Source: Baffinella frigidus (lineage: Eukaryota > Cryptophyceae > Cryptomonadales > Baffinellaceae). Taken from it: a DNA stretch of 20,804 bases. Under the pieces are notes generated by a model. The model did not search any database, was not told the origin of the DNA, and saw nothing but the letters and a program-made list of their open reading frames with translations. A program made the position numbers and the translations under genes. Below are positions 3,545 through 20,262 of this stretch, piece by piece (position 1 is the stretch's first letter; each line of letters starts with the position of its first letter). Location of the stretch: NCBI GenBank assembly GCA_026770585.1, contig MU646494.1:356843-377646 (forward strand). Reading direction: 5' to 3'.

Positions 3545-3604
<60 letters not shown>

Positions 3605-4634: not shown

Positions 4635-4637
4635 CTG

Positions 4638-4715: not shown

Positions 4716-4768
<53 letters not shown>

Positions 4769-4985: not shown

Positions 4986-5081
4986 CTGTCTTCTTTTCTG
5001 ACGCAATCCCCGGATCCGAGTGGCACGTGACGTTCCCGGAAATAAACGCAGAACACTCAGACCCCCCTCGGGGGGGTACCG

Positions 5082-5150
5082 TTAAGCGATAAGACCTATG
5101 ACCCTACGGTAGGCACTCCGTAGGGCCATAGGGGAGGTTCCTGGATCCGA
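5082..5150. mobile_element. Internal fragment of the CCTACGGTAGGC element family
   Basis: AAGCGATAAGACCTATGACC, then CCTACGGTAGGCACTCCGTA and AGGGGAGGTTCC match the internal part of the CCACACAGCGG family in reverse orientation. Termini not seen. Confidence 0.5.
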
Positions 5151-5193
5151 AATAAATTCAGAACAAGCAGAACCCTTTCCGGGGGGGCACTTG

Positions 5194-5350
5194 GGGTTCT
5201 TCCTTCATTTGCGAAAACGATGAAATACAATCGTTTTTTGGCAACGAAAATTACTGCACAAACGCTTCACTATTGCTAATAAGATCCGATTGTGTGGTAA
5301 TTTTCGTTGCTAGAAACGATTAGATTTCATCGTTTCCGCACATGAACCTT
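5194..5350. mobile_element. Foldback element, core family GCAACGAAAATTACTACACA, copy b
   Basis: Inner arms GGCAACGAAAATTACTGCAC and its complement surround a ~30-nt spacer. The outer arms (GAAAACGATGAAATACAATC / mirrored) are unlike those of the other copies but pair with each other, and pairing continues weakly to AAGGTTC at the ends. Confidence 0.8.
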
Positions 5351-5474
5351 GTGTCTCTTTCTGCACTGAGCCACGGTCGTGTTATGCGCTCGATAGACCG
5401 TGCTTCCCCCCTTCTGGTTGTTTCGCTTCACGTAAACCAAATGAATTTCTCCCTCTTTCCTTTATGCCGATAAA

Positions 5475-5830
5475 TTTGAGGGCCAAGAGGTCCTAGGCAG
5501 GTCCTAGGGCCCTACGGTAGGGCGTATGAGCCTACTGGCCTTTAACCACTTAAGGGATAAGGCCCACAGGTTATGGGGCAAAACAATCGGTTCAAACCCC
5601 CAAACCCCAAAAGTCGGCCACACCCCACACCGACGTTTCACCAATGTTTTTTTTCCAGTCTCGGCACCACGGGAACAGCGGGTGGTGCTACGAAGGAATT
5701 GTCGGCCCAAATCGGGCCACCTTTCCGTAACCTTATCCGTAGGAACCCCCCCTGTTTCCCTACGGATTGCCTACCGTAGGGTCCTCTGGCGTATCGCTTA
5801 TGGGTTATTTGGTGGTGGTGACCCGCTGAA
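5475..5830. mobile_element. Nested fragments of CCACACAGCGG-type elements
   Basis: Contains CCTACGGTAGGGC, GATAAGGCC, GGCCCAAATCGGGCCACCTTTCC, CCTTATCCGTAGGAACCCCC and GATTGCCTACCGTAGGGTCC, internal blocks of the family in both orientations. Intact termini are missing. Frames crossing it are repeat-derived. Confidence 0.5.
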
Positions 5831-5867
5831 CCCCTGGGATCCCACCACAATCCCCCCATCGCTGATA

Positions 5868-6330
5868 GGTCCTTAAGGTTTTAATTTCGCCCAACATAGC
5901 CCACCAACACGCCCTTTTAATTCCTTTAAGTTCTTCGAGATCCCAACATAGGCGGACACCGGAACTTGTTTTGCAGAAAAGCCATGCTTCCTTTCTATGT
6001 TTGGTCACTTATTGACACTTGTTGACTTTATTCGAAAAAGAATTGCACGGCGCAGAAATGAGGCGTCCTTTAGATCCTTTAGGTTCTTCGAACTCCCAAC
6101 ATAGACGGACACTGGAACTTATCTGCAAAAAAGCCATGCTTCCTTTTGGCGTGGTGCTAATTCCTTTAGTAGGTCCTTTAGGTTTGAATTTCGCCCAACA
6201 TAGCCCAACGACACGTCTTTCCGTAGAAAAGATCTGCAGATCCTTTAGGTCCTTTAGGTTCTTCGAGCTTCCAACATAGGCGGACACCGGAACTTATCCT
6301 GCAGAAAGGCCATTCTTCCTTTCTTCTCCT
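5868..6330 (-). repeat. CTAAAGGAC-type repeat, reverse, several units A and B
   Basis: Reverse-complement copies: GGTCCTTTAGG, TTCTTCGAGCTTCCAACATA, GGCGGACACCGGAACTT, GCAGAAAAGCCATGCTTCC. At least three B units and two A units alternate. Together with 2565-3848 they form a large imperfect inverted arrangement. Confidence 0.75.
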
Positions 6331-6333
6331 GTA

Positions 6334-6690
6334 GGTCCTTTAGGTTTTAATTTCTCCCAACATATGCCAACGACACGCCCTTCCGTAGAAAGGACTGCAG
6401 AGAAAGAATTTTTGCTTTCGGATCGCATTTCGCTCTCCAGTGCAGAGGCTCGTGAAGAGGGGATACAGGGTGGTTCTCCTGGGGTGTTTGAGGAGTCCCA
6501 AGTGGGAACTCGCTCGCGCACACACCGAACTCAAGTCAGCCTTTAGACTCTGCTGCTCTTTTAGGTCCTTGAGGTTTTAAATGCTCCCAACATAGCCCAA
6601 CGACACGCCCTTCCGTAGAAAGGATCTGCAGAGAAAGCATTTTTCTCTACCTAGTTTTTGCTTTCGGATCGCATAGGATCCTAGCTATTC
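6334..6690 (-). repeat. CTAAAGGAC-type repeat, reverse, long unit A plus a second A
   Basis: Starts with TAGGTCCTTTAGGTTTTAAT and includes CCAACGACACGCCCTTCCGT, then the extension found at 3125-3250. A further A unit lies at about 6560-6680. Confidence 0.7.
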
Positions 6691-6961
6691 GCCGTTCAGT
6701 CCAAGGGGCGAAAAAATCGGAGGCCCGTTGACCGGAATTGGAGCCATTTTCATTCTTTCATAGGAGAAATCATAGGAGAAATTACTATGCCATAGGTAAT
6801 TTTACTTATGATTCCCAATCAAATCACATCACATCTTCGCGGTCAAAACCTGACATGACACCGAAATTCTGAGGTGGAGGCCGTAGGCGGAGGCAGTTGA
6901 GGACAGTTGGCATCGAACGGCTCTTCGGATTGTGGTGGGAAGCCTGCCACGAGGAGCTACC
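6691..6961 (+). promoter_or_regulatory. 5' flank of LCYB, no element identified
   Basis: This 270-bp stretch precedes the LCYB start codon. No TATA box, initiator or other defined element is recognised. The start context CTACCATGCG has an acceptable eukaryotic initiation context (C at -3, A two bases before the ATG is not at the Kozak purine site). The call is positional only. Confidence 0.2.
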
Positions 6962-7364
6962 ATGCGCCGCGTGACGGTGCTGCTCCTCTCGCTGGCGGCG
7001 GCGCCCTCCTCGCTGGCCTTCCTGGCCTCTTCCCCAAGGTTTCATCCAGCGCCGCGTACTGGCGCAGCGCAGTGCGGTATTCGGCGGGGGCCAGACAGGC
7101 CAGGGCTTCGGTTGACAGGTGTGGGAGCGAAGGGGCTGCGGAGCGTGCTTTCGGGGGCGGATGCTCCCTCGAAGGAGCAGGAGGGGGACAAGGTGCACGG
7201 GGAGGCCAGTGGGAACCAGCACGGGGATGCGGGGCAGCAAGTGCTGTGGAAGGACGCATCGCCGCAGCGGACCGTAGGGAATGACCAGAAGTCGTGGATG
7301 AACCAGTTCCCCAACACGTGGCAGCCTGCGGAGGCGCTGGCCCTCGACCGTTCGCTCCGAAATG
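6962..7364 (+). CDS. LCYB: LCYB exon 1: bipartite plastid leader and N-terminus
   Basis: ATG at 6962 is the first ATG of the frame. It encodes MRRVTVLLLSLAAAPSSLAF: basic n-region, hydrophobic core and AxA-like SLA|F cleavage site with Phe at +1, typical of targeting through secondary red plastid membranes. A Ser/Arg/Pro-containing transit-like stretch follows (LASSPRFHPAPRTG). The exon ends ...ALALDRSLRN G|GTGAGC, a good donor in phase 1; the first base of exon 2 completes a Gly codon. Reading on past the donor meets a stop at 7556-7558. It is the longest exon and the only one without obvious truncated copies. Confidence 0.85.
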
Positions 7365-9556
7365 GTGAGCTGGCACCCAAAGCTCACCTGAGTTGCACCC
7401 TCTCGTCTCTGCACCGGGAGAGAACGGGGCACGGGCCGGGTAGTGTCGGTTTTCTCAGATTCTCGCTCCCTCCTGAGGGGCCGTTTCCTCACAGTTGGAA
7501 GCAGTCTACGAGCCGCGTGCCGACACCCTCAAACGGAGCCACGAACCAAAGTAAATAGCTGCTCCCGATATCACTCAACTGGGAAAAGACACAATCCAGA
7601 GGTTCCCACAAAGTCCAGGAGCCCACATGGCGCCGTCCCCCGGCTCCTCGCTCATACCACTTAGCAGCGGCTGAGTTCCTCCCCCCCCGGATATCCGGGG
7701 GAAACGCGGTTAGAATCCAATGCAAATGGATGAGATTCTAGTACAAATGGTTTAGATGGACTATATCCGTGAAGCCCGCGGAGGCTGCTAAGTGGTGGCG
7801 CCGTTCCCCGGCTCCTCGCTCATGCACGAAACGTCCTCTGCACGCAAACAATCGTTGCTGCCGATCAGAGATGCTTTCATTGGACATCCAGGATGCTGCA
7901 ACAATCTCATCACAGATTAATAGGGCAACGGCCTGAAAATGGGGTAGTTAGGCCTACGGGATTGCCTAGGACCTCCTACCGTAGGCCGAGACTTTTTGGT
8001 CCCAGGATCCCTCGGCCTACGGTAGGAGGTCCTAGGCCATCCCGTATGCCTAACTACCCCATTTTCAGGCCGTTAGCCTATCAAGATCGTTTCAGCTCAG
8101 AGTGCTTACTTCAACAGTTCTTCATTTTTTTAACCCCACCCCCGACCCCCGCAGAATCGCAAAAGTCAACTCACCCCCACCCTCGAGTCAACTTTTGGCG
8201 GACCGCAGGGCCAGCATCCACCGGGGGCAACTACACCCAAAACCCAAACCCTAACCCCAACCCTAACCCTAACCCTCAACCTAAACACTAAACCCCAACG
8301 CCCCCCGCAGGGCCAATCCCCCCCCGGAGCCCCTACACCCAAAACCCAAACCCTAACCCCAACCCTAACCCTAACCCTCAACCTAAACACTAAACCCCAA
8401 CGCCCCCCGCAGGGCCAATCCCCCCGGGGAGCCCCTACACCCAAAACCCAAACCCTAACCCCAACCCTAACCCTAACCCTAAACCTAAATGCTCCCCAAC
8501 GCCCCCTGCAGGGCCAACCTTCCCCGGGGGTACAGCGCGCGTCTCAGGCATCGAAGTCAAACCCACGGATCCAACCAATCTCATCCGGAGGATTATTCAA
8601 CTTGAATACTCCTCCGGATGATTAAATCTCGTCAGGGATGGTTTCAGCGGGATTAAATCTCGTCAGGATTTTTTTGATTGCATACTTGTTCGTTTTGTAA
8701 CCCCCCCCGACCCCCGCAGGACCGGTCTCTCCCGGGAGCACTTAAACCCAAACCCCAAACAGAAACCCTGAACCTGAACCCTAAACACTAAACCCAAACG
8801 CCCCCCGCAGGGCCAATCTCTCCCGGGAGCACAGTCCGCGTCTCAGGCACAAACCCTGAACCCTAAACCCTACACCCTAAACCCTAAACCCTAAACCCTC
8901 AACCCTCAACCCTCAACCCCAAACCCTCAACCCTCAACCCTCAACCCTAAACGCAGGCGTCGAGCTCAAAATCGCCGACCCAACCAAGCTGTACGACGTA
9001 GCGCTCGTCGGGACAGGTCCTACCCTAAACCCTTAACCCTGAGACCTAAACCCTAAACCGTGAGACCTAAACCCTGAGACCTAAACCCCGAGATCTCATC
9101 CGGACGAGTATTTATGATAAATACGCCACGGCAAAGAAATTTACTACACACATGCTTTAACAATTACTAGTATGATCCATTTGTGTAGTAAATTTTGTTG
9201 CCGTGGCGTATTTATCATAAATACTCGCCGCGATGAGATCTAAACGACCCAGCCAAGCTGAACGACATGGCGCTAGTCGGGACCGGTCCTGCCACCATCG
9301 AAACCCTCAATCCCAAACCCCAACCCCCAAACCTCAAACCCCAAACCCCAGACCCTAAACCTTGAACCGTAAACACTAAACACTAAACCCCAAACCCCAA
9401 ACCCTACACCCCAAACCCTAAATCCCAAACCCCAAACCCCATACCCCAAACCCTAAACCCCAAACCCCAAACCCCAAACCCCAAACCCCACACCCCACAC
9501 CCCACACCCCACACCCCACACCCCACACCCCAACCCCCAAACCCCACCCTAAACCT

Positions 9557-9587
<31 letters not shown>

Positions 9588-12500
9588 ACCCCCAACCCCA
9601 AACCCAGGCCCCGCCGCCATCGCGCTCGCTGCGGAGCTTGGGAGGGCTGGGGCGTCGGTGTGCGTCGTGGGACCCGTGCAGGTATATACAGTATATACGG
9701 TATATACGATATATATGGTATAAACGGTGTGTAACGTAGTTATATACGGTGTGTAACGCAGTTATATACGGTGTGTAAGGTAGTTATGCACGGCGTGTAA
9801 GGTAGGTATAAACAGTGTGTAACGTAGTTGGCAGGGCTGGGGCGTCGGTGTGCGTCGTGGGACCCGTGCAGGTATCCACACAGTGGGCTTCGAGGGGTTC
9901 GTCGGGGCCGAACTTCCGGGCGTTACGTGACCAATTTGCACTAGAACAATCCGACCTGGCGTGGCGTGGCCGAACAATTATGGGGTGTGGAGAGACGAAG
10001 GGGAGGAGCTCGGCCGCCCTTTGTAAAGCGATTGAGTGTGTAAAGCGACTTGTGTGTCTTCATGGGGAGAAAAGTGCCCCCCCCCCCATGTAAAGCGACT
10101 CCCATTTTGTAAAGCGGCTGGTTTCTCATCAGGGGGCGTGGCCGAACAATTACGGGGTGTGGAGAGACGAATGGGAAGAGCTCGGCCGCCCATTGTAAAG
10201 CGATTTGGTTTGCAAAGCGATTTGTATCCCCGTTTGTAAAGCGATGAGTGTGTAAAGCGATCGCTGCCTCTTCAGGGGGCGTGGCCGAATAACTACGGGG
10301 TGTGGAGTGACGAATGGGAAGAGCTCGGCCTCCCAGACAGCTGCGTCGAGGAGAGCTTTCTGGTGCGCCTCATAACCTGAACCCAAACCCCGAAACCCGA
10401 ACCCCGAAACTCGAAACCCGAAATCCATTTGCGTGGAGCGCTTTCTGGTGCTGCCGAACTCCCATTTCTGTCACAGTCTATTTGGCCTCGCCGGTTTGGT
10501 GAGACCGGGCTCGTTTTCGCTCCAAAGTTGACGGAGTTGTACCACGGACCCGGCACGTCAACTTTAGAATAGTCCCGCGGTGCAGCCCTCCCACGAACCA
10601 GCCTAGCGTTGCGCTGGCGAAACGGAGTCTTTCTATTATTTGTACCACGAATCGGCCACTTCTTGAGATAAATCACGGACTTCCCTCCTCGCTTTGTTTG
10701 GTGCCCACCCACGAACAAGCCTCGGGCAGAGAGCTCCCTGTAAATGCCATATCCGATTCCGGACATTTGACGCCTACAGAGAGCTCCCTGTAAAGGCCAT
10801 ATCCGATTTCGGACATTTGACGTGCGGTGAATTGCGGGGGGATCCGTTATTCTGCTCGCGAAGTGGCCGATTCGTGGTAGAGCGCTTTCATCTCGGACCA
10901 TACCAGAATCTGTCCTGATGAAAAGGCGTAAGATAGCATCATTTGATGCCTAAAATAGCATATACACCTTTACCTTCCGCGTGGGGAGCCTAAGATAGCG
11001 GGACAGATTCTGTCCTGGTCCGAAATTAGCATGCGGGAAAGCTTGGCCGATTTCAAGAAGAGACGTTTTTTCAGAAATCGAAGAAATTGTACCATGACGC
11101 GCCATGTGCACGGTCCATCTAAACGATTCTGGTACAAATTCTGAAAATGTTCATCTTTAAAATCGGCCAAGTTTTGCCGCAAGCGCTCTACAGATAAAAG
11201 AAAGACTCTGTTTCGCCAGCCCACCCTAAGGCTCTTGGTCCTTGATTTGCGTGCCGTCTTTTTTGTTCGGTATGCACAGCTCCCCTGACAGTGTCGACCA
11301 TGCTGATTTTGCCACCTTACAAACTTAATTGGTATTAATCGCGCAGTCTGGCGTGGTGACTTGCGTGCCATCCTTTTTGTTTGGTATTCACCCTGAGGGG
11401 ACTTGCGGCCAATCCCGAATAACCCTTTATCGCAAAAGTTGACATGATTTATACCACTAAAATACATGTTAGACCTTTTTGTACCGGATCCATTCATCAC
11501 GGGGCAGCCGCATTGCGGCCGCATCTCGAGAGGATCTGACTTAAGAATGCTCAAAATACCATAATGTTCCATCCAGGGTGGTCACAGCGCCCCATCGCAG
11601 TGTCGAATATGCTGATTTTGCCCCCTAACACAGCTATTGCTAACACATCCAGTGGGTATTAATTGCATCCCGCATGGACGTGGAGTCACTCCCGACCCAC
11701 ACTCGTTATTATTCAAGTATTAAAATGCGGTCTTGTCCGACTATTACAGTATTAAAGCGCGGTCTTGTCCGACTATTATAGTATTAAAGTGCGGTCTTGT
11801 CCAACTATTTAAGTATCTACGTGCGGTTTTGCCCTCTACTACAATACTCAAGTGCGGTCGTGCCCTCCAGTTGAGGCGGATGACCATATTAAATTATTAA
11901 ACTGTGGTCTTATCCTTCTATAAAGTATTAAAGCGCGGTCGTGTCCTCTTAAACTGCGGTCTTGTCCGACTATTATAGTACTAAAGCGCGGTCTCGTCCT
12001 GCAGTCGATCACCACATTAAATTATCAAACTGCGGCCGTGTCCCGCTACAAAGTATTAAAGTATGGTCTCGTCCCGAAGTCGACGCGGATCACCATCTCC
12101 TCGCTCGTTCTTGGAGCCGTTTGCTCGTTCTTGGAGTCATTTTCTTCCAAAAATTGACTTTTGAATACCGTTTCCCCTTAAAAAATGACTTTTGAATAAC
12201 TCCCGAAGGGCCCTCCGTGGTCCAGTACTAAAACAAGGTCTCGAAGTACAAAGTATTAAAGCGCGGTCTCGTCCTCCAGTCGATCACCATATTGAATTAT
12301 TAAAGTGCGCTACAAAGTATTAAAGTGTGCTACAGAGTACTAAAACACGGTCTCGTCCTGCCGTCGACGCGGACCACCATCCCCAAGGGCGAGTCGACCA
12401 GCATCCCGTCCGCGGATTACCTACCATATTACATGACCATATTACATACTTCAACTGCCGTCGTGTCCTACTACAAAGTACTAAATATCGGTCGTGTCCT

Positions 12501-14088
12501 CTTAAACTGCGGTCGTGTCCGACTTTTGCAGTATCAAAGTGCGGTATTGTCCGACTATTCAAGTATTAGAATGCGGTCGCGTCCGACTTTTAAATTATTG
12601 ACGTGCGGTCTCGTCCTGCAGTCGACGCGGATCACCATCTCCAAGGGCGAGTCGATCAGCATCCCGCGCGGCTACGGCAAGGTGCGCGAAAGTTGACAGG
12701 CGAAAGTTGACAGGAGAAAGTTGACGCACGAAAGTTGACTGACGAAAGTTGATAGACGAAAGTTGACAGACGAAAGTTGACAGCAGCTCTAGGGCGAGTC
12801 GATCAGCATCCCGCGCGGTTACGGCAAGGTGCGCGAAAGTTGACAGGCGAAAGTTGACAGACGAAAGTTGACATCAGCTCTTCCGAAGTTGACAGTATCT
12901 CTTCCAACGTTGCACAACCGCTCTTCCAAACTTGTCGAAAGAGCTACACCAAGTGAAATCCACTGTTACTTCTTAAGTTAACAGAGGTTCCACTTTTGCT
13001 TTGAGACGTTCCACTCTCGACTGTTGTCTCGGTGGGCCTCGTTTTAAAATGAAACCCTCGTAGTCCACCGTGTGGACCCGGCAGGTGTTAGCACTATAAT
13101 CTCCATACAAGTATTAATTAATTGCTTTTGGGTAACGAAATTTACTACACGATTTGCTCATAAAAGTAATAGTAAAGCAGCTGTGTAGTAAATTTCGTTG
13201 CGCAAAAAGCAATTAATTAATACTTCTATGGAGATTAACTAGGACGAGGACTAACCCGGACAGGCTTACAGTCCACCCACCCTAACACAGGCTACCGTAA
13301 CACATACGTACCCTCCACACATACTCCTTCGGCCGGCCCCCGATTTCCCCCTGCAAGGAAGTATGCCTGAAGGGTGGACACCATAACGCAGACCTACCCT
13401 CCACACATACTCAATCAGTCCGGCCCCGACGGGTTTGTGTTAGGGTAGGTCCACTGTACACCTCCCTTCGGTCATCAGGTATGGGTTGTAGGGTGTAGGG
13501 GGGAGGTGTAGGGGTTAGGGAGTAAATGGTTTGTAGGGGTTAGGGAGTAAATGGTTGTAGGGGTTAGGGAGTAAATGGTTGTAGGGGTTAGGGAGTAAAT
13601 AAATAAATGGTCTCGCACGGCAGGACGCGTTTTTCCTCGTGGAGAACAACGTAGTGCGGGAAGTTGTCGCCCTCTTTTGCTAAGTTGTTAGGGTAGGTCC
13701 ACTGTACCACACGGTGGGCTACGAAGGTTTCGTTCGGGCTGAAATTCAGGGTGGTACGTGACCAAATTGCACCAGAAGATCCTTAAAGTTAATTGCATCG
13801 AGGCAAGTTGACTTTTGATGAGAGGTTCGTAGTCCACCGTGTGGGTACCGCAGTAGCTTGCAAACTAGAAGGTGGTTAACTTAGACGGTAATCAACTTAA
13901 ACGGTCGACAACTTAGACGGTTATCAACTTAGAAAGGTAATCAACTTAGACGGTAATCAACTTAGACGGTAATCAACTCAGACGGTAATCAACTTAGAAG
14001 GTAATCAACTTAGACGGTAATCAACTAGATGATGATATGATGATGAAATGCACGCGGCGTTGCGTGGCCTACCCCTAACCCCCAAACC

Positions 14089-14169
<81 letters not shown>

Positions 14170-17100
14170 ACCCCGGGGCCGCAGGTGTCGGGGGCGAAGA
14201 CACGGGAGGTGCTCCTAGGCCGCTGCGCAGAATACGGTGTCGAGGTACGGCTCAAGCACCCAAGTGCCACTCGAGGCCAGAACCGTGACTATTTTAAAAC
14301 AGGGATTCCTTTACAAGTGAAGAAAAAAAACAGCGGTGTAGTAATTTTCACAGAAAAGGGGGCGTTTGGTCACGTATCTAGGGAAATTCCCCTAGATATG
14401 TGACCAAGCCTGCCCGGGACTGGTACTAAATTTAACAACCCCACATTTAAAATACTCCCTCTTCTAGCCTCGAGTGGGGGGTGTCGGGGGCGAAGACACG
14501 GGGGGTGCTCCTCGGGCGTTGCGCAGAGCACGGTGTCGAGGTACGGCTCAAGCACCCACGTGTAGCAGTGTCTTGATCGTGTGTCTAATATTGTCTTGCT
14601 CGTGCGCCCAAGTGTAGTAGTGTCTTGATCGTGTGTCCCAAGCACCCAAGGGCAGTAGTGTCTAGGGCGCTGCGCTGAATACGGTGTCGAGGTCTGGCCC
14701 AAGCACCCACGTGTAGCAGTGGCGTCGCTGGCTGGATCCGGCCCAAGCACCCAAGTGTAGCAGTGTCTTGATCGTGTGTCTAATATTGTCTTGCTCGTGC
14801 GCCCAAGTGTAGTAGTGTCTTGATCGTGTGTCCCAAGCACCTAAGGGCAGTAGTGTCTAGGGCGCTGCGCTGAATACGGTGTCGAGGTCTGGCCCAAGCA
14901 CCCACGTGTAGTAGTGTCGTCGCTTGGTGGATCCGGCTTAAGCTCCCAAGTGTAGCAGTGTCTTGAGCGTGTGTCTTGAGCGTGTGTCTCGCTTGGTGGA
15001 TCCGGCCCAAGCACCCAAGTGTCGTAGTGTCGAGGGCGCTGCGCAGAGTACGGCGTCGAGGTCCGCCCCGAGCTCCCACCACAAAAGTGGGCTTCGCAAG
15101 AGATTTCGAGCAGAAATCCGGTCGAACTGTCGGCGAATTATTTTTTCTTGTTCCAGCAGTCCAACAATTAGTACCACGGAGCTAAATGGACCGTTCTGCG
15201 AAGCCCACTGTGTGCCACACAGCGGGCTACGAAGGGATTTTCGGGCAAATTCTGCCCGACTTTCCGTTACCTTATCCGTAGGAACCCCCCTATGTCCCTA
15301 CTAGCTACCGTAGGGCCTTTGGATTGTTCACCAAGTGGTTATTCAAAATCCCTTTGAAGTCTGCTATGTGGCAAGTGGAGTATCTCGATCTCGGTTTCGG
15401 CTGGCGGGTTTTCTACGAGGGGTTGCCTGTTCCTCTCCCCACCCTACACCTTATTTAGTAAATTCGGGTTTATTCGGGTGTGTTCGGGTGTATCCCCGAG
15501 TAAAGTAAAAGGGAACCGGCAGGGGAGACTCTCCCCGAGTAAATGTGAGCTTGCCACACGCCCCAACCCTAAACTTTACACCCTAAACCCTACACCCCAA
15601 AATACTATACACCCTCATAAACCGTAACAAATGGTAAACCCTACGCAGGTTCTGGAGGGAATCGTAGAAGAAGTGACGCACGGGGACGGCTTGCCTGGGA
15701 GCAACACCGCCATGCTATCCCTCAACCCTAGACCCTAGACCCTGCACCCTACACCCTACACCCTACACCCTACACCCTACACCCTACACCCTACACCCTA
15801 CACCCTACAACCCACACCCTACACCCTCACACACCCTACACCCTAATAAACCCTGCGAAACCTGAATACACCCGAATAAACCCGCATAAACCTTAATAAA
15901 CCTTAACACACCCGAATAAACCCGAATAAATCCGAATAAACCCTCAACCCCACACGCTAGGTCCTCGAAGGAATCGAGGTGACGCATGGATCCGGCTTGC
16001 CCGGGAGCAACAACGGACTGCCATCCCTCAACCCTACACCCTAATCCCTACACCCTACAACCTACTCCCTACACCCTCACACACCCTACACCCTAATAAA
16101 CCCTGCGAAACCTGAATACACCCGAATACACCCGAATAAATCCGACCAAACCCTCAACCCCACACGCTAGGTCCTCGAAGGAATCGTAGAAGAGGTGACG
16201 CACGGATCCGGCTTGCCCGGGAGCAACAACAGAATGCGGCTCACTAACCCTCAACCATAACCACAACCATAACCCCTAATCCTAAACCCTAAAGCCTAAC
16301 CATAACCCCTAATCCTAAACCCAAAACCGTAGCCATAAACCCTAATCCTAAACCCTAAACCCCAATCCTAAACCCTAAACCCTAACTACATCCCCTAATC
16401 CTAGACCCTAAACCCACCCTCAGCCCTCAACAATACACCCTAACCCCCAGGTCCTGGAAGGAATCGTAGAAGAAGTGACGCACGGATCCGGCTTGCCCGG
16501 GAGCAACAACGGACTGCGGCTCACTGGCGGGACAGAGCTGCAGTGCCGCGTCCCGGTACAGCCCCGACCGCGGGGTTTACGGACAGGAAAGCAGCGTTTT
16601 GTTGGGGGAGACGCCGGTTATGGGTAGGAAAGCGCCGTGTATGTTAGCTAACGCGCTGAGGACGTGGGCGAGAGAGAGAGAGAGATATAGAGAGAGAGAG
16701 AGAGAGAGAGAAAGAGAAAGAGAGAGAGAAAGGGAGCAACAACGGAATGCGGCTCACGGGCGGGACGGAGCTGCAGTGTCGCGTCCCGGTACAGCCCGAA
16801 CCGCCGCGTTTTGTCCGCTCGTGTCCCGGTCAACTCCGAACCGACGCGTGTTTGCGTCCCGGTCAACTCCGAACCGATGCGTGTCTGCGTCCCGGTACGG
16901 CATGTGCCTCACGGGCGGGACGGAGCTGCAGTGCCGCGTCCCGGTACAGGCCCGAACCGCCGCGGTTTGTCCGCTCGTGTCCCGGTACAGTCCGAACGGG
17001 CGCGTGTTTCCCCCGGTACAGTCCGATCCGTTGCATGTCCGCTCGTGACAGAGCTAGACAGCGCTCCGCGCGTGCCACTTTGGATGTGATGGCAATCAAA

Positions 17101-20100
17101 AGTTGCTTCCACGCAAGAGTGTAGGGCAGAGTGACCCACATGAAAAATAGTAGAATTCTACTATTTTTTAAGTTCATAAGTGGACATTCTTCCCACAAAA
17201 AAATCGAAATTTCGGAAATTTGTTACACATTCCGTGTGAACTGGCTTGTTTTCCCAGGTCAGCCCTACACTTTTGCGTGGTTATGGGGAAGAACCGCGTG
17301 AAAACGCGCGATTTCTCCAAAAGTTGACTTAAGCCTCCAGCAGACTTGACTTTTGCGATTGACCCCCTTCCCATGTAGCGTAGCCGGTGACGCGGGTGCG
17401 TCAACCTGAGCGGTTTCGAACGTGGACGTTTTCGCAGCTGCCTCGTCAACTTACACGTAAGTTGACGTAGCTGCCTCGTCAACTTACGTCACTTCGTAGC
17501 TGCCTCGTTAACTTACGTCACTAACGTGGACGCTTGCCACTCGAGGCTGGAAAGGGGGGCATTTTAAATGTGTGGTTGTAAACTTTTGTACGAGACTCAG
17601 GTTGTGGCGGCCGGGCACTACTCCTCAAATGCTACGAAAATTACTTCACACATGTTTGCTTTACTATTCCTAGTATGACCCACCATATGGTCCAGTAAGT
17701 TGACGAGTCCACTTTCGGAACTGTTCAGGTGGTTGCGGCCGGGCACTACTCACCGATGGTGCGGGACTGCTCTCCGGGCGTGGAATTCAACGCGATTCGA
17801 AGCGAATACGCCGTATGCCCCTACGGTAGGTCATCCGTAGGGGCATAGGGGGGTCCCTACGGATGTCCTAACCGACACCCTGGAATCCATCGGACCCTAC
17901 GGTAGGCCATCCGTAGGGGCATAGGGGGGTTCCTACGGATGTCCTAACCGACACCGCGCAGGTTGTGGCGGCCGGGCACTACTCTCCGATGGTGCGGGAC
18001 TGCTCTCCGGGCGTGGAATTCAAAGCGATTTGAAGCGAATACGCCGTATGCCCCTACGGTAGGCCATCCGTAGGGGCATAGGGGGGTTCCTACGGATAAG
18101 GTAACCGACACCGCGCAGGTTGTGGCGGCCGGGCACTACTCTCCGATGGTGCGCTACTGCTCTCCGGGCGTGGAATTCATGCGCTTCGAGGGGGAGTACA
18201 TGACCCGGGACTGGGAGCCTCTTCTCCAGGTCAACCTTAACACTCTTATCCGGGAAAACCTATTTTTCTTTCATTTGATGGCAATCAAAATTACTACACG
18301 AATTCTTTAATTTATTAATAAAAACGAATTGTGTAGTAATTTTCGTTGCCATCAAATGAAAAAAAAATAGGTTTCCCCGGATAAACTCCACTTAGCAGCC
18401 ACCGGGGGCTTCACGGATACAGTCCATCTAATCGATTTGTGCTATAATCTTATCCATTGCCCTCCAACCTAACCGGGATTTCGCCTTGATTTCAAGGCGA
18501 AAAGGTCCTCGGTCGCTGCTAAGTGGGCAGGGGTTCCTCGAAATTAAGTTGCGTGCCTTGCTTTCTCTCTCTGTCTCGTCCCGGCGCGTTTGACTATCAA
18601 TTAACACTACAAGGGTTACTCGAAATTAAGTTGCGTGCCTTGCTTTCTCTCTCTCGTTTGACTATCAATTTGACCATCAACTTTCAGGGGCCCTCGGGCC
18701 TATTCTATCCACACAGCGGACTTCGAAGGGATTTCGAATAACCCTTAAGCGATAAGACCTAGGATCCTACGGTAGGCAATCCGTAGGGACATAGGGGGGA
18801 GTTCTACGGATAAGGAAACGGAAAGGTGGCCCGATTTGGGCCGAAAACCCCTTCGAAGCCCGCTGTGTAGCGTACTACAATCCACTCGAGGCTAGAGATG
18901 TGACTATTTTAAAACAGGGTTTCTTTTACAAGCGAAGAAAAAAAGGCGTGTAGCAGTCTTCACACAAATGGGGGCGTTTGGTCACGTATCTGCGGGATAT
19001 CCCGCAGATACGTGACCGAGCCTGCCCGTGACAGGTACTAAATTTAACAACTCCCTTTTAGAATACTCCCTCTTCCAGCCTCAAGTGGATACAGTGTCTC
19101 ATTACCCTGAATCTCATTTCGGAACGTAACAGAACCTGATAATAAATACACTCATCTAAGCCTTGGTTTTATATCCCCAAAAGCATTATCCACCCTTGTC
19201 ATCGGCGTTGGAAGCCTTAAGATACACAACATATTCTGTTATGTTCCGAGATTAAATCGAGCGTGCCCTACGGTAGGCAACACCGTAGGGACATAGGGGT
19301 GTTCCTACGGATAAGGCAACGGAAAGTCGGTGGATTATCTACCAAAAACCGTGGCAAGTAATAACAGGTTCTCTCTCTTGTCCGGCAGACGCTAGGATGA
19401 AGAAACGCGGTTTCAGGGGCCTACAGTACCACACAGCGGGCTGCGAAGCGATTTTCGGGCTCTGGGAGCCCGAGTTTCCGTTCCCTTATCCGTAGGAACC
19501 CCCCTATGTCCCTACGGGTCGCCGTAGGGTCCTCGGTCTTATCGCTTAGGGGTTAGTCAAAACCCCTTCGAAGTCCGCCGTGTGGCTCCAATGAAGTGTC
19601 TCAAAGACCCTGAATCTCTCTCTTGTGCGGCAGACGGTCTTATCGCTTAGGGGTTACTCAAAATCCCATCGAAGTCCGCTGTGTGGAAAGCATGCATGTG
19701 GACAGAAATGAAATCATGCCCAACCTCCCACACAGCGGACGTCGAAGAGGTTTTGAATAACCCCGACATGCAGTGTCCCAATTACCCTGTGTGGCTCCAA
19801 TGCAGTGTCTCAAAGACCCTGAATCTCTTCCTCCTCCGGCAGACGCCGCCGTCGCAGCATTATCTACCGAAAATCCCTTCGTCCACACGAGGCTAACCAG
19901 GCGAACAGAATAAAACCCGGGGGCTGTACAAGTAGGGCCTATCCACAAGTGATTTATAACCGACCGACCGCTGAGCGGTCGGTAACGTGATCATTTCCCT
20001 ACAAAACTTTAAAAGTCCCTTTTATTCTGTTCGCCTGGGTAGCCTCGTCTGGGTAGCCCGCTGTGTGGCAAGTAATAACGTGTTCTCTTCCTCCTCTGGC

Positions 20101-20262
20101 AGACCCCGCCGTCACAGCGCATCCAGATCTCCAAGGAGTACGTCGAGTCGGTCCGCCCCCCCCCACTCCTGTCTTTGTCCGTGCGCCCCACCCCTCCCCT
20201 TCTTGCAGCTTGTGTTGCGTCAGCACCGTCCTGCCCTCACTGCAGCAATTCCATCTCGGAAG
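6962..20262 (+). CDS. LCYB: Lycopene beta-cyclase, plastid-targeted, split gene (C-terminus not resolved)
   Basis: The enzyme cyclises lycopene ends to beta-rings in the plastid, giving beta-carotene. Joining 6962-7364, 8957-9016, 9608-9681, 10276-10362, 12622-12681, 14185-14244, 16451-16555 and 18119-18229 gives 320 codons with no stop and phase-compatible junctions. Residues 1-19 are a signal peptide, with Phe20 after the cleavage site. Residues 148-179 hold the FAD/NAD(P) Rossmann motif (YDVALVGTGPAA, then ASVCVVGPVQ). Residues 182-189 are WPNNYGVW, diagnostic of plant-type lycopene cyclases. Spacing from there through GYGKV, RCAEYGVE and AAGHYS matches the plant enzyme closely. Exons 9 (20103-20150) and 10 (20246-20262) are tentative. 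The C-terminal ~150-200 residues expected for the family are not identified. A paralogous cyclase (epsilon-cyclase or neoxanthin-synthase-like) is possible. Confidence 0.88.
7628..7825. repeat. 30-bp direct repeats flanking the CCACTTAGCAGC element
   Basis: TGGCGCCGTCCCCCGGCTCC...CATAC at 7628-7657 and TGGCGCCGTTCCCCGGCTCC...CATGC at 7796-7825 immediately flank the element. This is far longer than a normal transposon target-site duplication. Confidence 0.75.
7657..7795. mobile_element. TIR element CCACTTAGCAGC, 139 bp, copy 1
   Basis: Ends are CCACTTAGCAGC and GCTGCTAAGTGG. A copy of the same length lies at 18388-18526 in reverse orientation. Shared internal parts are a GGATTTAGATGGAC-like segment and TATCCGTGAAGCC. 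No ORF; MITE-like. Confidence 0.8.
7920..8081. repeat. Near-perfect palindrome, 71-nt arms
   Basis: Arms 7920-7990 and 8011-8081 pair with about four mismatches around a 20-nt loop. The arms contain GGCCTGAAAATGGGGTAGTT and CCTAGGACCTCCTACCGTAG. The inner part resembles the CCTACGGTAGG blocks of other elements. It would form a very stable hairpin in the LCYB pre-mRNA. Confidence 0.9.
8215..8540 (+). repeat. ~105-bp tandem repeat with CCCTAACCC arrays and CCCCGCAGGGCC
   Basis: Three units of ACACCCAAAACCCAAACCCT, CCCCAACCCTAACCCTAACC and CGCCCCCCGCAGGGCCAAT. Each carries a CGCAG that resembles an acceptor without a coding frame after it. More units occur at 8700-8850. Confidence 0.85.
8548..8580 (+). 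repeat. Acceptor-side copies of LCYB exon 2
   Basis: After CGCGTCTCAG (8538-8547) the sequence encodes IEVKPTDPTNLI in the phase of exon 2 (VELKIADPTKLY), then diverges. A further acceptor-only remnant, CCGCGTCTCAG|GCA, ends at 8845. Both lie upstream of the intact exon. Confidence 0.7.
8869..9090 (+). repeat. Telomere-like arrays around LCYB exon 2
   Basis: CCCTAAACCCTAAACCCTC units run from 8869 to the acceptor at 8956. After the exon, CCCTAAACC and ACCTAAACCCTGAG units continue to 9090. Confidence 0.85.
8957..9016 (+). CDS. LCYB: LCYB exon 2 (60 nt): start of the Rossmann motif
   Basis: After AACGCAG the frame completes Gly135 and reads VELKIADPTKLYDVALVGT, ending with the first base of the second glycine codon (GGGACA G|GTCCTA). 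This is the beta-1 strand and first glycine of the dinucleotide-binding fold. The donor GTCCTA is weak and still looks like coding sequence (Gly-Pro). A second copy at 9244-9300 continues straight into exon 3-like sequence. Confidence 0.85.
9091..9241. mobile_element. Foldback element, core family GCAACGAAAATTACTACACA, copy c
   Basis: Perfect ends AGATCTCATC/GATGAGATCT and ~60-nt arms. Inner core is GGCAAAGAAATTTACTACAC; outer arms (CGAGTATTTATGATAAATAC) are specific to this copy yet nearly perfect complements. It sits in intron 2 between the intact exon 2 and its decayed second copy. Confidence 0.88.
9244..9300 (+). repeat. Decayed copy of fused exon 2-exon 3 (intronless junction)
   Basis: Encodes DPAKLNDMALVGTGPATI without interruption. 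Its first part matches the end of exon 2 (DPTKLYDVALVGTG) and its last 15 nt (GTCCTGCCACCATCG) match the start of exon 3 (GCCCCGCCGCCATCG). So one copy inside intron 2 spans the place where the intron now lies. Confidence 0.75.
9300..9606 (+). repeat. Telomere-like (CCCCAAA/CCCTAAA/CCCCACA)n array to the exon 3 acceptor
   Basis: About 300 bp of degenerate CCCCAAAC, CCCTAAAC and CCCCACAC units, plus TAATCCATAATCCATAATCC. The array ends in CCAAACCCAG, which is the exon 3 acceptor. Confidence 0.9.
9608..9681 (+). CDS. LCYB: LCYB exon 3 (74 nt): Rossmann helix and beta-2 strand
   Basis: Completes the split glycine and encodes PAAIALAAELGRAGASVCVV, then GPVQ. With exon 2 it forms the G-T-G-P-A motif and the hydrophobic VCVV strand. 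Donor CAG|GTATAT. A tail copy with its own GTATCC donor lies 190 nt downstream. Confidence 0.88.
9682..9832 (+). repeat. Intron 3 satellite, unit about GGTGTGTAACGTAGTTATATAC
   Basis: Begins at the exon 3 donor as GTATATACAGTATATACGGTA and passes into ~22-bp units with the motif GTGTGTAACGYAGTTATA. It ends at the tail copy of exon 3. Confidence 0.85.
9833..9871 (+). repeat. Tail copy of LCYB exon 3 with donor
   Basis: AGGGCTGGGGCGTCGGTGTG...CCCGTGCAG is identical to the last 39 nt of exon 3 and is followed by GTATCC. No acceptor precedes it. Confidence 0.9.
9874..9960. mobile_element. Left part of a CCACACRGTGGGC element
   Basis: CCACACAGTGGGCTTCGAGG followed by GGCCGAACTTCCGGGCG and TACGTGACCAATTTGCAC matches the more complete element at 13706-13850. 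The right end is replaced by the head copy of exon 4. Confidence 0.55.
9964..10190 (+). repeat. Two acceptor-side copies of LCYB exon 4
   Basis: Copy 1 (9964-10019) encodes WPNNYGVWRDEGEELGRP and has no clear CAG. Copy 2 (10133-10190) follows CATCAG and encodes GAWPNNYGVWRDEWEELGRP. Both then break into TGTAAAGCG satellite with an early stop. They differ from the intact exon at a few codons (R/S, R/L), so they are diverged. Confidence 0.88.
10020..10262 (+). repeat. Intron 3 satellite TGTAAAGCGA
   Basis: About a dozen TTGTAAAGCGA / GTGTAAAGCGA units fill the gaps after each truncated copy of exon 4 and stop just before the intact exon's acceptor. This satellite is not seen elsewhere in the window. 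Confidence 0.85.
10276..10362 (+). CDS. LCYB: LCYB exon 4 (87 nt): WPNNYGVW motif
   Basis: After TTCAG it encodes GAWPNNYGVWSDEWEELGLP, then DSCVEESFL (29 codons, phase 0 at both ends), with donor CTG|GTGCGC. WPNNYGVW followed by DE is the signature of lycopene beta/epsilon cyclases and is the strongest evidence for the family call. Of three copies of this exon head it is the only one that continues to a donor. Confidence 0.92.
10430..10447 (+). repeat. Tail copy of LCYB exon 4 with donor
   Basis: TGCGTGGAGCGCTTTCTG followed by GTGCTG matches the last codons of exon 4 (CVEESFL) with a 3-nt loss. It lies downstream of the intact exon. Confidence 0.6.
10727..10822. repeat. ~50-bp tandem duplication
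   Basis: CAGAGAGCTCCCTGTAAATG, CCATATCCGATTCCGGACAT and TTGACG occur twice in direct tandem with two or three differences. Confidence 0.9.
10905..11020. repeat. Imperfect inverted repeat
   Basis: ACCAGAATCTGTCC near 10908 and ACAGATTCTGTCCTGGT near 10999 face each other. TAAGATAGC occurs twice between them. Possibly a decayed foldback element. Confidence 0.4.
11700..12615 (+). repeat. Intron 4 satellite AGTATTAAAGTGCGGTC
   Basis: Roughly 20 units of about 33 bp with the pattern AGTATTAAAGYGCGGTCKTG and TCC(GACTATT). Some units continue into CTGCAG/CTCCAG plus the first bases of exon 5, so the unit appears to derive from the 3' end of the intron including its acceptor. Confidence 0.85.
11871..12423 (+). 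repeat. Acceptor-side copies of LCYB exon 5
   Basis: Head copies begin at 11871 (TTGAGGCGGATGACCAT), 12005 and 12280 (TCGATCACCA, after CAG), 12080 (TCGACGCGGATCACCATCTC, after AAG) and 12364 (full-length-like, coding STRTTIPKGESTSIPSADY, after CCG instead of CAG). All lie upstream of the intact exon and show graded decay. Confidence 0.8.
12622..12681 (+). CDS. LCYB: LCYB exon 5 (60 nt)
   Basis: After CCTGCAG it encodes STRITISKGESISIPRGYGK (20 codons, phase 0), with donor AAG|GTGCGC. It corresponds to the segment between the WPNNYGVW-DE region and the conserved Y-G-R-V motif of lycopene cyclases, and its length differs by only one residue from the plant enzyme. It is the only one of the copies with both CAG acceptor and GT donor intact. 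Confidence 0.85.
12684..12895 (+). repeat. Intron 5 satellite GCGAAAGTTGACAG
   Basis: About a dozen units of GCGAAAGTTGACAG, starting two bases after the exon 5 donor and restarting after the tail copy of exon 5. The unit is the first 14 nt or so of the intron itself. Confidence 0.88.
12791..12828 (+). repeat. Tail copy of LCYB exon 5 with donor
   Basis: AGGGCGAGTCGATCAGCATC...GGTTACGGCAAG, then GTGCGCGAAAGTTGACAG, repeats the last 38 nt of exon 5 plus the first part of intron 5 with one synonymous change. No acceptor precedes it. Confidence 0.9.
13097..13237. mobile_element. Foldback element, core family GCAACGAAAATTACTACACA, copy d
   Basis: Ends TAATCTCCAT/ATGGAGATTA. Inner core GGTAACGAAATTTACTACAC and its complement. 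Copy-specific outer arms ACAAGTATTAATTAATTGCT pair with their partner. Confidence 0.88.
13245..13470. repeat. ACCCTCCACACATACTC direct repeats
   Basis: ACGTACCCTCCACACATACT and ACCTACCCTCCACACATACT occur about 80 bp apart with CGGCCGGCCCC-type followers. GTTAGGGTAGGTCCACTGTA occurs at about 13439 and again at about 13688. Confidence 0.65.
13480..13600 (+). repeat. Tandem GGGGTTAGGGAGTAAATGGTTGTA
   Basis: Four units of about 24-27 bp. Intron 5. Confidence 0.9.
13706..13850. mobile_element. CCACACGGTGGGCTACGAAG TIR element
   Basis: Begins CCACACGGTGGGCTACGAAG and ends TTCGTAGTCCACCGTGTGG, about 145 bp. A left-end relative is at 9874 and a right end (CTCGTAGTCCACCGTGTGG) is at about 13056-13074. 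No ORF. Confidence 0.75.
13872..14030 (+). repeat. Intron 5 satellite CGGTAATCAACTTAGA
   Basis: About ten 16-bp units with small changes, ending in TAGATGATGATATGATGATG. Found only here. Confidence 0.9.
14070..14175 (+). repeat. Telomere-like (CCCTCAA)n array before LCYB exon 6
   Basis: About thirteen near-perfect CCCTCAA units, then CCCCGGGGCCGCAG, the exon 6 acceptor. Confidence 0.92.
14185..14244 (+). CDS. LCYB: LCYB exon 6 (60 nt)
   Basis: After GCCGCAG it encodes VSGAKTREVLLGRCAEYGVE (20 codons, phase 0), with donor GAG|GTACGG. It aligns residue for residue in length with the V-x-R-x-x-L/LL-x-R/K-C-x-x-x-G-V segment following the Y-G-R motif of lycopene cyclases. The other copies of this exon lack an acceptor, so this first one is the natural choice. 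Confidence 0.87.
14267..14477. mobile_element. CCACTCGAGG TIR element, 211 bp, copy 1
   Basis: Ends CCACTCGAGGCCAGA and TCTAGCCTCGAGTGG. A 207-bp copy lies at 18882-19088 and a truncated one at 17537. Central palindrome GGTCACGTATCTAGGGAAAT...GTGACC. It separates exon 6 from its first tail copy. Confidence 0.85.
14481..15060 (+). repeat. Four donor-side copies of LCYB exon 6
   Basis: Copy at 14481-14540 is full length (VSGAKTRGVLLGRCAEHGVE) but has GGGG instead of an acceptor, because the preceding sequence is a TIR element. Copies at 14662-14691, 14857-14886 and 15031-15060 keep only the last 30 nt (GRCA/GRCAEYGVE). Each is followed by GTACGG, GTCTGG or GTCCGC. Confidence 0.88.
14555..14925 (+). 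repeat. 195-bp tandem duplication with CAAGTGTAGCAGTGTCTTGA units
   Basis: The segment with CAAGTGTAGCAGTGTCTTGA, TCGTGTGTCTAATATTGTC and the exon 6 tail is repeated at 195-bp spacing. Smaller CAAGCACCCAAGTGTAG units recur to about 15030. Frames on the minus strand across it are repeat-derived. Confidence 0.85.
15076..15214. mobile_element. TIR element with CACAAAAGTGGGCTTCGCA ends
   Basis: Left end CACAAAAGTGGGCTTCGCAA and right end TGCGAAGCCCACTGTGTG, about 135 bp, directly abutting the next element at 15215. Related to but distinct from the CCACACAGCGG family. Confidence 0.65.
15215..15371. mobile_element. CCACACAGCGG TIR element, complete, 157 bp
   Basis: CCACACAGCGGGCTACGAAG at the left and CCCTTTGAAGTCTGCTATGT at the right. 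The interior has ACTTTCCGTTACCTTATCCG and TAGGAACCCCCCTATGTCCC. MITE-like. Confidence 0.8.
15460..15645. repeat. TTCGGGT units and telomere-like CCCTAAAC/CCCTACAC before first exon 7 copy
   Basis: TATTCGGGTGTGTTCGGGTG around 15465-15500, then CCCTAAACCCTACACCCC and related units up to ACCCTACGCAG at 15648. Confidence 0.7.
15649..16245 (+). repeat. Three acceptor-side copies of LCYB exon 7
   Basis: Copies start at 15649 (after CGCAG), 15961 (after GCTAG) and 16171 (after GCTAG). They encode VLEGIVEEVTHGDGLPGSN, VLEGIEVTHGSGLPGSNNG (a 6-nt in-frame loss) and VLEGIVEEVTHGSGLPGSNN. Each then dissolves into CCCTCAACCCTA-type repeats. All are upstream of the intact exon. Confidence 0.9.
15718..16168 (+). 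repeat. CCCTACA and CCCGAATAAA arrays, duplicated block
   Basis: (CCCTACA)n with about twelve units, then AATAAACCCGAATAAACCCG units. The block from CACACACCCTACACCCTAAT to CACACGCTAG is repeated at 15830-15960 and 16078-16170 together with the exon 7 head. Confidence 0.88.
16246..16450 (+). repeat. Telomere-like (CCCTAAA/CCATAACCCCTAATCC)n array to the exon 7 acceptor
   Basis: CCTAATCCTAAACCCTAAAC units and variants run into ACCCTAACCCCCAG, the acceptor of exon 7. Confidence 0.88.
16451..16555 (+). CDS. LCYB: LCYB exon 7 (105 nt)
   Basis: Encodes VLEGIVEEVTHGSGLPGSNN, then GLRLTGGTELQCRVP (35 codons, phase 0), with donor CCG|GTACAG. It matches the segment between the R-C-x-x-x-G-V motif and the A-x-G motif of lycopene cyclases in length. 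It is the only copy with both ends; three head copies precede and at least two tail copies follow. Confidence 0.87.
16669..16735 (+). repeat. (GA)n microsatellite
   Basis: About 65 bp of GAGAGA with AAAGAG interruptions, lying between the intact exon 7 and its first tail copy. Confidence 0.95.
16733..17045 (+). repeat. Donor-side copies of LCYB exon 7 and donor satellite
   Basis: Tail copies at 16733-16788 (GSNNGMRLTGGTELQCRVP) and about 16902-16943 are each followed by GTACAG. Around them CGTCCCGGTACAGTCCGAAC and CGTCCCGGTCAACTCCGAAC recur about seven times, so the donor junction itself has become the unit of a satellite. Confidence 0.88.
17046..17600 (+). other. Rest of LCYB intron 7, left part
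   Basis: Contains a short hairpin AAATAGTAGAATTCTACTATTT (17144-17167 region), GTAGCTGCCTCGTCAACTTACG repeats at 17430-17525 and a truncated CCACTCGAGG element at 17537-17590 that ends next to the first exon 8 head copy. No gene. Confidence 0.6.
17601..18025 (+). repeat. Three acceptor-side copies of LCYB exon 8
   Basis: Copies start at 17601 (after CTCAG; VVAAGHYS only), 17729 (after TTCAG) and 17962 (after CGCAG). The last two encode VVAAGHYSPMVRDCSPGVEF, with Asp where the intact exon has Tyr, then run on in diverged form (NAIRSEY versus MRFEGEY) into element sequence. Spacing is 233 and 157 bp. Confidence 0.9.
17812..18110. repeat. CCTACGGTAGGCCATCCGTAGG element blocks, three copies
   Basis: CCCCTACGGTAGGYCATCCG and TAGGGGCATAGGGGGG blocks at 17818, 17893 and 18050, each following or separating exon 8 head copies. 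They match the inside of the CCACACAGCGG family in reverse orientation. Confidence 0.8.
18119..18229 (+). CDS. LCYB: LCYB exon 8 (111 nt)
   Basis: After CGCGCAG it encodes VVAAGHYSPMVRYCSPGVEF, then MRFEGEYMTRDWEPLLQ (37 codons, phase 0), with donor CAG|GTCAAC. AAGHYSPMVRY sits where lycopene cyclases have the V-L-D-A-T-G motif, though the Asp is not conserved here. It is the fourth and only complete copy. After it the gene is hard to follow. Confidence 0.82.
18247..18383. mobile_element. Foldback element, core family GCAACGAAAATTACTACACA, copy e
   Basis: Ends TATCCGGG/CCCCGGATA. Inner core GGCAATCAAAATTACTACAC with its complement, and copy-specific outer arms AAAACCTATTTTTCTTTCAT. Begins 18 nt after the exon 8 donor. 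Confidence 0.9.
18388..18526. mobile_element. TIR element CCACTTAGCAGC, 139 bp, copy 2
   Basis: CCACTTAGCAGC and GCTGCTAAGTGG ends. Same length as the copy at 7657 and reversed relative to it. Internal GATTTCAAGGCGAAA-type hairpin near the right end. Confidence 0.85.
18531..18672. repeat. ~80-bp tandem duplication
   Basis: CTCGAAATTAAGTTGCGTGC, CTTGCTTTCTCTCTCT and GTTTGACTATCAATT occur twice. The related complement TGATGGTCAAATTGATAGT is tandemly repeated at 20345-20385. Confidence 0.85.
18709..18870. mobile_element. CCACACAGCGG TIR element, reverse orientation
   Basis: CCACACAGCGGACTTCGAAG at the left and CTTCGAAGCCCGCTGTGTAG at the right, interior reverse-complementary to the copy at 15215. 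Confidence 0.8.
18882..19088. mobile_element. CCACTCGAGG TIR element, 207 bp, copy 2
   Basis: Ends CCACTCGAGGCTAGA and TCCAGCCTCAAGTGG. The central 38-bp palindrome GGTCACGTATCTGCGGGATA...GTGACC differs from copy 1 at both arms in compensating fashion. Confidence 0.87.
19255..19325. repeat. CCTACGGTAGGC block
   Basis: CCCTACGGTAGGCAACACCG, TAGGGACATAGGGG and TTCCTACGGATAAGGCAACG: internal part of the CCACACAGCGG family without termini. Confidence 0.6.
19388..19870 (+). repeat. Acceptor-side copies of tentative LCYB exon 9
   Basis: The context TCTCTCTTSTBCGGCAG|ACG or TTCCTCCTCCGGCAG|ACGCCGCCGTCGCAG occurs at 19388, 19636 and 19846. It recurs with the longer open frame at 20103. The first copies last only a few codons before element sequence. 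Confidence 0.6.
19429..19585. mobile_element. CCACACAGCGG TIR element, complete
   Basis: CCACACAGCGGGCTGCGAAG to CTTCGAAGTCCGCCGTGTGG, 157 bp, same orientation as 15215. Further loose ends of the family lie at 19664-19685, 19729-19765 and 20058-20068. Confidence 0.8.
19887..20055. mobile_element. TIR element GAGGCTAACCAGGCGAACAG
   Basis: Left CGAGGCTAACCAGGCGAACA and right TTCTGTTCGCCTGGGTAGCC form ~27-nt inverted repeats. The interior has a perfect hairpin ACCGACCGCTGAGCGGTCGGT. Only copy in the window. Confidence 0.75.
20103..20150 (+). CDS. LCYB: Tentative LCYB exon 9 (48 nt)
   Basis: After CTCTGGCAG a frame continuing phase 0 from exon 8 reads TPPSQRIQISKEYVES and meets a GTCCGC donor. 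The upstream acceptor-side copies argue that this is a genuine exon by the pattern of this gene. I cannot align it with a conserved cyclase motif. Confidence 0.45.
20246..20262 (+). CDS. LCYB: Tentative LCYB microexon 10 (17 nt)
   Basis: ACTGCAG|CAATTCCATCTCGGAAG|GTAACT would code QFHLG plus two bases. Two later copies (direct at 20640-20656, inverted near the right edge) have ATAACT in place of the donor. Acceptor tracts before the copies are C/T-rich and similar. Length and function are unverified. Confidence 0.35.

Follow-up and report, generated by a model that had tools for sequence, protein, structure and literature searches.

How an exon comes to be surrounded by broken copies of itself, and what such copies record about the growth of introns, is the question raised by this locus. 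The window, by which we mean the whole stretch of DNA that was analyzed, comprises 20,804 bases with a G+C content of 52%. A preliminary description of it reported that truncated exon heads in a lycopene cyclase (LCYB) gene lie only upstream of the intact exon and truncated tails only downstream, attributed this to repeated tandem duplications spanning splice junctions, and proposed that only outcomes preserving one intact exon survive. We consider it very probable that the copies are recurrent local duplications in direct orientation, in a duplication-prone stretch, and that they have lengthened the introns. The copies, their orientation, their side, their continuity into intron sequence and their occurrence in a second gene are seen directly in the DNA.

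The lycopene cyclase gene and its partial exon copies

The plus-strand LCYB model has nine exons, all introns are of the GT-AG type, and the reading frame is open throughout exons 1–9. Joined exons 2–8 match PF05834 (E-value 1.8e-25; 90.3 bits, against a curated cutoff of 23.4) over residues 14–157, from exon 2 to the start of exon 8 and across every junction; the gene is a lycopene cyclase. It also matches TIGR01790 (5e-21, 75.3 bits), below the full-length cutoff of 209.5 because the window contains only the N-terminal part. Neither family model matches the later part of exon 8 or exon 9. Exon 1 (6962–7364), which carries the start codon, encodes what is presumably a plastid-targeting leader of the complex-plastid type. 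Both the gene model and the family match define the intact exons 2 (8957–9016), 3 (9608–9681), 4 (10276–10362), 5 (12622–12681), 6 (14185–14244) and 7 (16451–16555). The match covers only the start of exon 8 (18119–18229), and exon 9 (20103–20150) is tentatively placed by the gene model alone. No locus related to the LCYB region was found in the viral and genome contigs scanned.

We aligned each LCYB exon to the entire window and set the floor for exons 2–9 at the best score obtained from the gene region after dinucleotide shuffling (40 shuffles), with maxima of 15–19 depending on the exon. We examined 24 partial copies, so the earlier estimate of about 25 was reasonable. Nineteen are solid, scoring above the shuffle maximum, which rules out chance similarity for them, and five are weak. 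The solid set consists of ten heads, eight tails and one full-length copy of exon 6. Solid copies occur for seven of nine exons, or eight of nine when an exon with a weak copy is counted.

All of these copies lie on the plus strand, and the solid ones were recovered by alignment. Two heads precede exon 4, one having lost its acceptor (9963–10019) and the other carrying 48 nt of upstream intron (10082–10192). Exon 5 also has two, one with 21/21 exon bases and 65 nt of intron (12016–12100) and one in which the acceptor AG is lost (12348–12415). Three precede exon 7 (15561–15709, with intron flank; 15947–16021, found by self-BLAST as well; and 16157–16245), and three precede exon 8 (17598–17636, 35 nt; 17726–17809, 81 nt; and 17895–18042, 81 nt), the last of which the repeat scan shows to form a 157-bp tandem with intact exon 8. 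The solid tails belong to exon 2 (9245–9299, discussed below), exon 3 (9823–9880), exon 5 (12767–12872, with 44 nt of intron), exon 6 (14662–14713, 14857–14908 and 15033–15078) and exon 7 (16732–16811 and 16897–16968, each with 23 nt of intron), those of exons 3–7 all with a donor. In the repeat scan, the second exon-6 tail is a 195-bp tandem of the first. The 157-bp and 195-bp pairs are clean, abutting tandems. The full-length copy of exon 6 (14480–14562, exon part 14481–14540) has a donor and, as had been described, no acceptor, there being no AG in front of it. The downstream copy of exon 2 aligns to exon positions 1–58 (45/58), its first ~12 bases lying within a hairpin arm; judged by this alignment it may be a full-length copy instead of a tail, and it too would then be a full copy preceded by no AG.

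The weak set comprises a head of exon 2 (8545–8581, exon part from 8548), which keeps its AG and matches at 25/34 positions over the exon part (score 16 against a shuffle maximum of 15), a tail of exon 4 with 16 exon bases and a donor (10432–10455), and three exon-9 sites with 16, 2 and 0 exon bases. The exon-4 tail was identified by outward extension, as were the short exon-9 head with 16 exon bases (19824–19858, also seen by self-BLAST) and the copy of the exon-9 acceptor region with 2 (19571–19636, also seen in the hairpin scan).

A few matches stand outside the count: one to exon 4 at 19697–19753 (score 21 against a shuffle maximum of 19, 9 kb off), one to exon 5 at 4325–4370 (17 against 16, 8 kb off), and an inverted match to exon 7 at 16817–16891, within the downstream intron (21 against 19). 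Self-BLAST shows none of the three, nor any match for exon 1, whose alignment to the window gave only low-identity matches (best score 33, 122/186, 5 kb off), the shuffles having covered exons 2–9. The most similar copy is also the nearest in four of six series (heads of exons 4, 7 and 8, and tails of exon 7) and is not the nearest among exon-6 tails and exon-5 heads, which gives only a hint of an age gradient.

Orientation, splice junctions and the local background

An independent self-BLAST of the window (E-values up to 1e-2, simple arrays masked) yields 24 local direct rows that touch exons 2–9. All lie on the predicted side and within 1.5 kb: 15 heads upstream, and seven tails and two full-exon rows (exons 2 and 6) downstream, with four of the head rows touching the exon by only a few bases (17, 4 and 4 at exon 5, and 2 at exon 9). 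Exons are touched by neither inverted nor distant rows. The strict polarity claimed at the outset thus holds for 24/24 rows. When a segment spanning the end of an intron and the start of an exon is duplicated in tandem, the truncated head must fall upstream; in the mirror case the tail must fall downstream. Dispersed copying would leave copies on both sides, so the polarity supports tandem over dispersed copying.

By itself, polarity is no demonstration of selection. It follows automatically from tandem duplication, and the part of the preliminary proposal that invoked survival is required only for explaining why whole-exon duplicates are absent. The calculation on this point hinges on the unit assumed. 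If the duplicated unit equals the spacing between copies, 53% of exon-touching events are expected to duplicate a whole exon, and 12 exon-side events would all fail to give a full copy with a probability of 1.3e-4; with a unit equal to the length of homology, the figures are 12% and 0.21.

Similarity runs across the splice junction into the intron in 17/24 copies by outward extension (14/19 of the solid ones). These 17 share 14–91 nt of intron before the acceptor or 18–44 nt past the donor, a count that leaves out 71 nt of array-like flank at the exon-2 copy; among them, one includes no exon base and another includes 2. The exon-2 head, two exon-8 heads and the full exon-6 copy start 1–3 nt before the exon and share no clear intron sequence with it; an exon-4 head starts 2 nt inside its exon. 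Taken together, the alignments give good support to recurrent local duplication, in direct orientation, across splice junctions.

Such duplication extends beyond exon edges. A direct copy lies within 1.5 kb for 83/138 intronic 75-mers and an inverted one for 23/138; the mean number of copies is 2.06 direct (capped at 8) versus 0.22 inverted. With simple arrays masked, local direct repeats account for 41% of intron bases, 32% of intergenic bases (2400–6900, a comparison region that itself includes repeated elements) and 79% of exon bases; the higher exon coverage may reflect conservation of the source exon. We found no enrichment of duplication near exons, the observed difference between near and far intron being reached in 679/2000 shifts. 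Because coverage is similar in intron and intergenic DNA, and near exons as far from them, splice junctions are not privileged, and the exon copies are the recognizable part of a general process. The original proposal of intron growth by repeated junction-spanning duplication therefore stands as to recurrence, orientation, side and the crossing of junctions, and falls as to any special role of the junctions.

Nor is the pattern private to the cyclase gene, since a second gene on the minus strand (183–1966) also has a head upstream and a tail downstream. Its first exon (1821–1966) is joined in frame to exon 2 (183–237) in our exon model, and its start reads MEVPFASPNPEVAVVEVPKEEDRVIPPRWWENFWFREGASVEAYADNDWWAANVRRYENFQVHLRYQ. 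Alignment places a 32-nt head copy of exon 2, with AG kept, at 419–450 and a 33-nt tail copy, with the donor GT changed to TT, at 30–62. The gene has no NCBIfam match up to an E-value of 1, and its first reading frame has no Pfam match.

Two dispersed families are also present in the window. One has members at 762–837, 5676–5751, 15215–15290, 19429–19504 and, on the minus strand, 18728–18868, with CCACACAGCGGGCTACGAAGG-like starts and 79–91% likeness to the first copy. The other occupies 2560–2663, 3212–3363 and 6323–6474, the last inverted relative to the first two and 86–95% complementary.

On the reading that we favor, DNA would be duplicated recurrently and locally, in direct orientation, in units of tens to a few hundred bases, commonly both in introns and between genes. 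The tandem duplications would arise by breakage or replication restart. An event with breakpoints in an exon and in the intron next to it would necessarily leave the exon intact and add a surplus head on its upstream side or a surplus tail on its downstream side, to be removed along with the intron. Repetition of such events, together with hairpin elements and short-period arrays between the copies, would yield longer introns.

Material between the copies and the origin of intron 2

Most adjacent copies do not abut, which speaks against fresh tandems, whose copies would lie end to end. The 22 gaps between copies measure 9–247 nt, and some consist of near-pure hairpin elements (exons 2, 6 and 9), others of near-pure short-period arrays (exon-3 tail, exon-5 tail and exon-7 heads), and some of neither. 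Hairpins or arrays make up 63% of gap bases versus 40% of other intron, counting only hairpins from the systematic scan; the excess is mainly in arrays (0.40 versus 0.20), with hairpins alone at 0.23 versus 0.19. At least 39% of the gap is hairpin or array in 15/22 cases. This comparison of gaps with the remaining intron supersedes a shift test on gap contents (0/2000), the null of which was unfair in including the copies themselves.

These gaps bear on a second reading, in which duplication is coupled to insertion: where DNA has broken or a fork has stalled at a hairpin or array, repair with filler would leave duplicate, insert and duplicate in the manner of a very long target-site duplication. 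Its clearest case is at exon 6, where the hairpin scan found a 211-bp element with terminal inverted repeats on the plus strand (14267–14477) between two exon-6 copies; the 83-bp duplication brackets it almost exactly, one copy ending at 14266 and the next starting at 14480 (0 nt to spare on the left, 2 nt on the right). Between successive exon-9 copies lie different hairpins (19650–19764 and 19883–20052). The arrangement suggests, without proving, that breaks at hairpin elements drive the duplications. It was found post hoc, however; only 3/18 testable hairpins (19 found) have flanking direct repeats at p<0.05 relative to random positions, and the elements may have inserted later into pre-existing tandems. 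We regard the coupling as possible, if on the unlikely side. Within the gene, 14 hairpins have arms of 22 or more, and the ends nearest to a splice site lie 17 nt (18246, donor at 18229) and 23 nt (14267, donor at 14244) away.

One hairpin element recurs. A core of 66–75 nt is shared by five occurrences that have both halves (480–602, 5204–5346, 9091–9241, 13097–13237 and 18246–18384), and a sixth left half, without its right half, lies at 17641. The element centers a palindrome in 5/5 cases, with outer arms of 28–38 nt that match at 26–37 positions within an element and are little alike between elements (local scores 5–14). It either inserts into the centers of hairpins or makes palindromes from its own flanks.

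Telomere-like arrays of the CCCTAAA type occupy 8231–8517, 8851–8952, 9022–9088, 9301–9605, 14073–14173 and 15725–16447, coming within ~12 nt of four of the eight acceptors (exons 2, 3, 6 and 7). On the sense strand of introns their heptamers are C-rich (119, versus 18 G-rich); upstream intergenic arrays are G-rich on the plus strand (2 C-rich versus 41 G-rich). Judging from their composition and position, the arrays could serve as ready-made branch points and pyrimidine tracts, a role for which nothing specific appeared among the literature matches listed.

The copies might instead be truly spliced or bound, acting as alternative exons or as regulatory decoys. Splice dinucleotides are mostly retained: the donor GT in 10/10 LCYB donor-side copies (with the exon-2 copy read as ACCG|GTCC) and the acceptor AG at 12/14 head sites, the losses affecting a single head each of exons 4 and 5, and the AG of the first exon-9 site being placed two bases to the left of the split as printed. 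At ~90% identity, however, such retention would be expected without selection. None of the 24 copies is a complete extra exon with both splice sites; the heads continue into intron, neither the tails nor the exon-6 copy has its own exon's acceptor, and the intact exons by themselves suffice for an open frame and an unbroken family match. We therefore find a spliced or decoy function highly improbable.

Intron 2 holds the one copy in which a spliced junction appears. A scan of the gene for uninterrupted exon-exon junctions returned one clear case of eight, at 9286, where 13/15 bases match the end of exon 2 and 12/15 the start of exon 3. Apart from exon 3, the plus strand of the window contains no other 12/15 match to the start of that exon. 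In this copy, the tail of exon 2 runs into the head of exon 3 in frame and without an intron: positions 9246–9299 encode DPAKLNDMALVGTGPATI, compared with DPTKLYDVALVGTGPAAI in the joined exons, so that the coding frame is kept through the nucleotide-binding motif, at the place that intron 2 now occupies. The junction of exons 2 and 3 in the gene reads AG-GC, as a proto-splice site would, and the start of intron 2, GTCCTACC, resembles GTCCTGCC in the exon-2 copy. An alternative alignment of the copy, to exon 2 followed by intron 2 and with two small gaps, scores nearly as well (37 versus 39). Because an in-frame, intronless copy of this junction lies inside the intron, we suggest that intron 2 was born by duplication of continuous coding DNA, an origin that we consider likely but not proven; local duplication may thus also create introns.

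Taken by itself, the same copy would fit an origin of the copies from reverse-transcribed mRNA. For the seven other junctions we found no uninterrupted copy (the weaker side matching at most 8–9/15), on which ground a cDNA origin is rejected there, and the intron sequence in 17/24 copies largely refutes it; hardly any likelihood attaches to such an origin. An assembly artefact, which a region so rich in repeats might invite, is the least credible account of all, since divergence between copies and exons reaches 26% (one copy of 21 bases matches perfectly), the copies also diverge from one another, and the pattern is found in genes on both strands.

Beyond the recurrent local duplication that we favor lies a speculative and rather improbable extension, in which a single ongoing engine both makes and enlarges introns. 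Breaks at exon-side hairpins or telomere-like arrays would lead to re-copying of the exon edge with an insert, each intron would be a stack of tails, inserts and heads, and intron 2 would retain its uninterrupted source coding sequence.

Comparison with known systems

Arguments about the birth and lengthening of introns usually rely on faded traces. At this locus, individual events are marked by partial exon copies, which are recognizable because the source exon is conserved; the outermost copy-to-exon spacings span 33% (solid copies) to 41% (with weak copies) of 12,181 intron bases. Exon-edge copies are thus a readable record of intron growth and possibly of one intron's birth. If the pattern is genome-wide, single events could be dated and their presence or absence tested among strains.

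The preliminary description knew of no described gene with partial copies on nearly every exon. For a single boundary duplication this would be too strong, one such event being known from the RdRp gene of potato (PMC4974935); as judged by titles and abstract starts, the matches listed from the open-licence literature include no gene with repeated partial copies on most exons.

In the potato gene, reads and phylogeny document the origin of a new spliced intron through tandem duplication over an intron-exon boundary. The duplicated unit combines an intron's 3′ portion with the 5′ portion of the exon that follows, the copies differ at ten sites, and the first intron holds another tandem duplication of 83 bp (PMC4974935). 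The likeness to LCYB is the head copy upstream of an intact exon. Unlike the one boundary event described in the potato report (PMC4974935), LCYB has several per exon and on both sides of exons, with solid copies for 7/9 exons.

Exon duplication has been proposed as a route of intron gain for cases in Drosophila (PMC2891723), and for Daphnia a review mentions double-strand-break repair as a suggested route (PMC3488318). Intron 2 of LCYB resembles intron gain by tandem duplication in the AG-GC junction in the gene and the in-frame, uninterrupted copy in the intron, which duplication of the junction would predict, but differs in that its acceptor side is a telomere-like array and no clean exon copy.

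Introner transposons invite comparison because LCYB introns also hold inverted-repeat elements; in LCYB, however, the hairpin ends are off the intron ends, the closest by 17 nt, and whereas introner target repeats measure 3–9 bp, here the flanking duplication is 83 bp or none is detected (PMC9860276). Direct repeats at intron borders are similar to those of LCYB in lying near splice sites. They are described as 4–30 bp long, with a mean of 11.4, whereas the LCYB repeats are exon portions together with their flanks, and are multiple and one-sided (PMC11782384).
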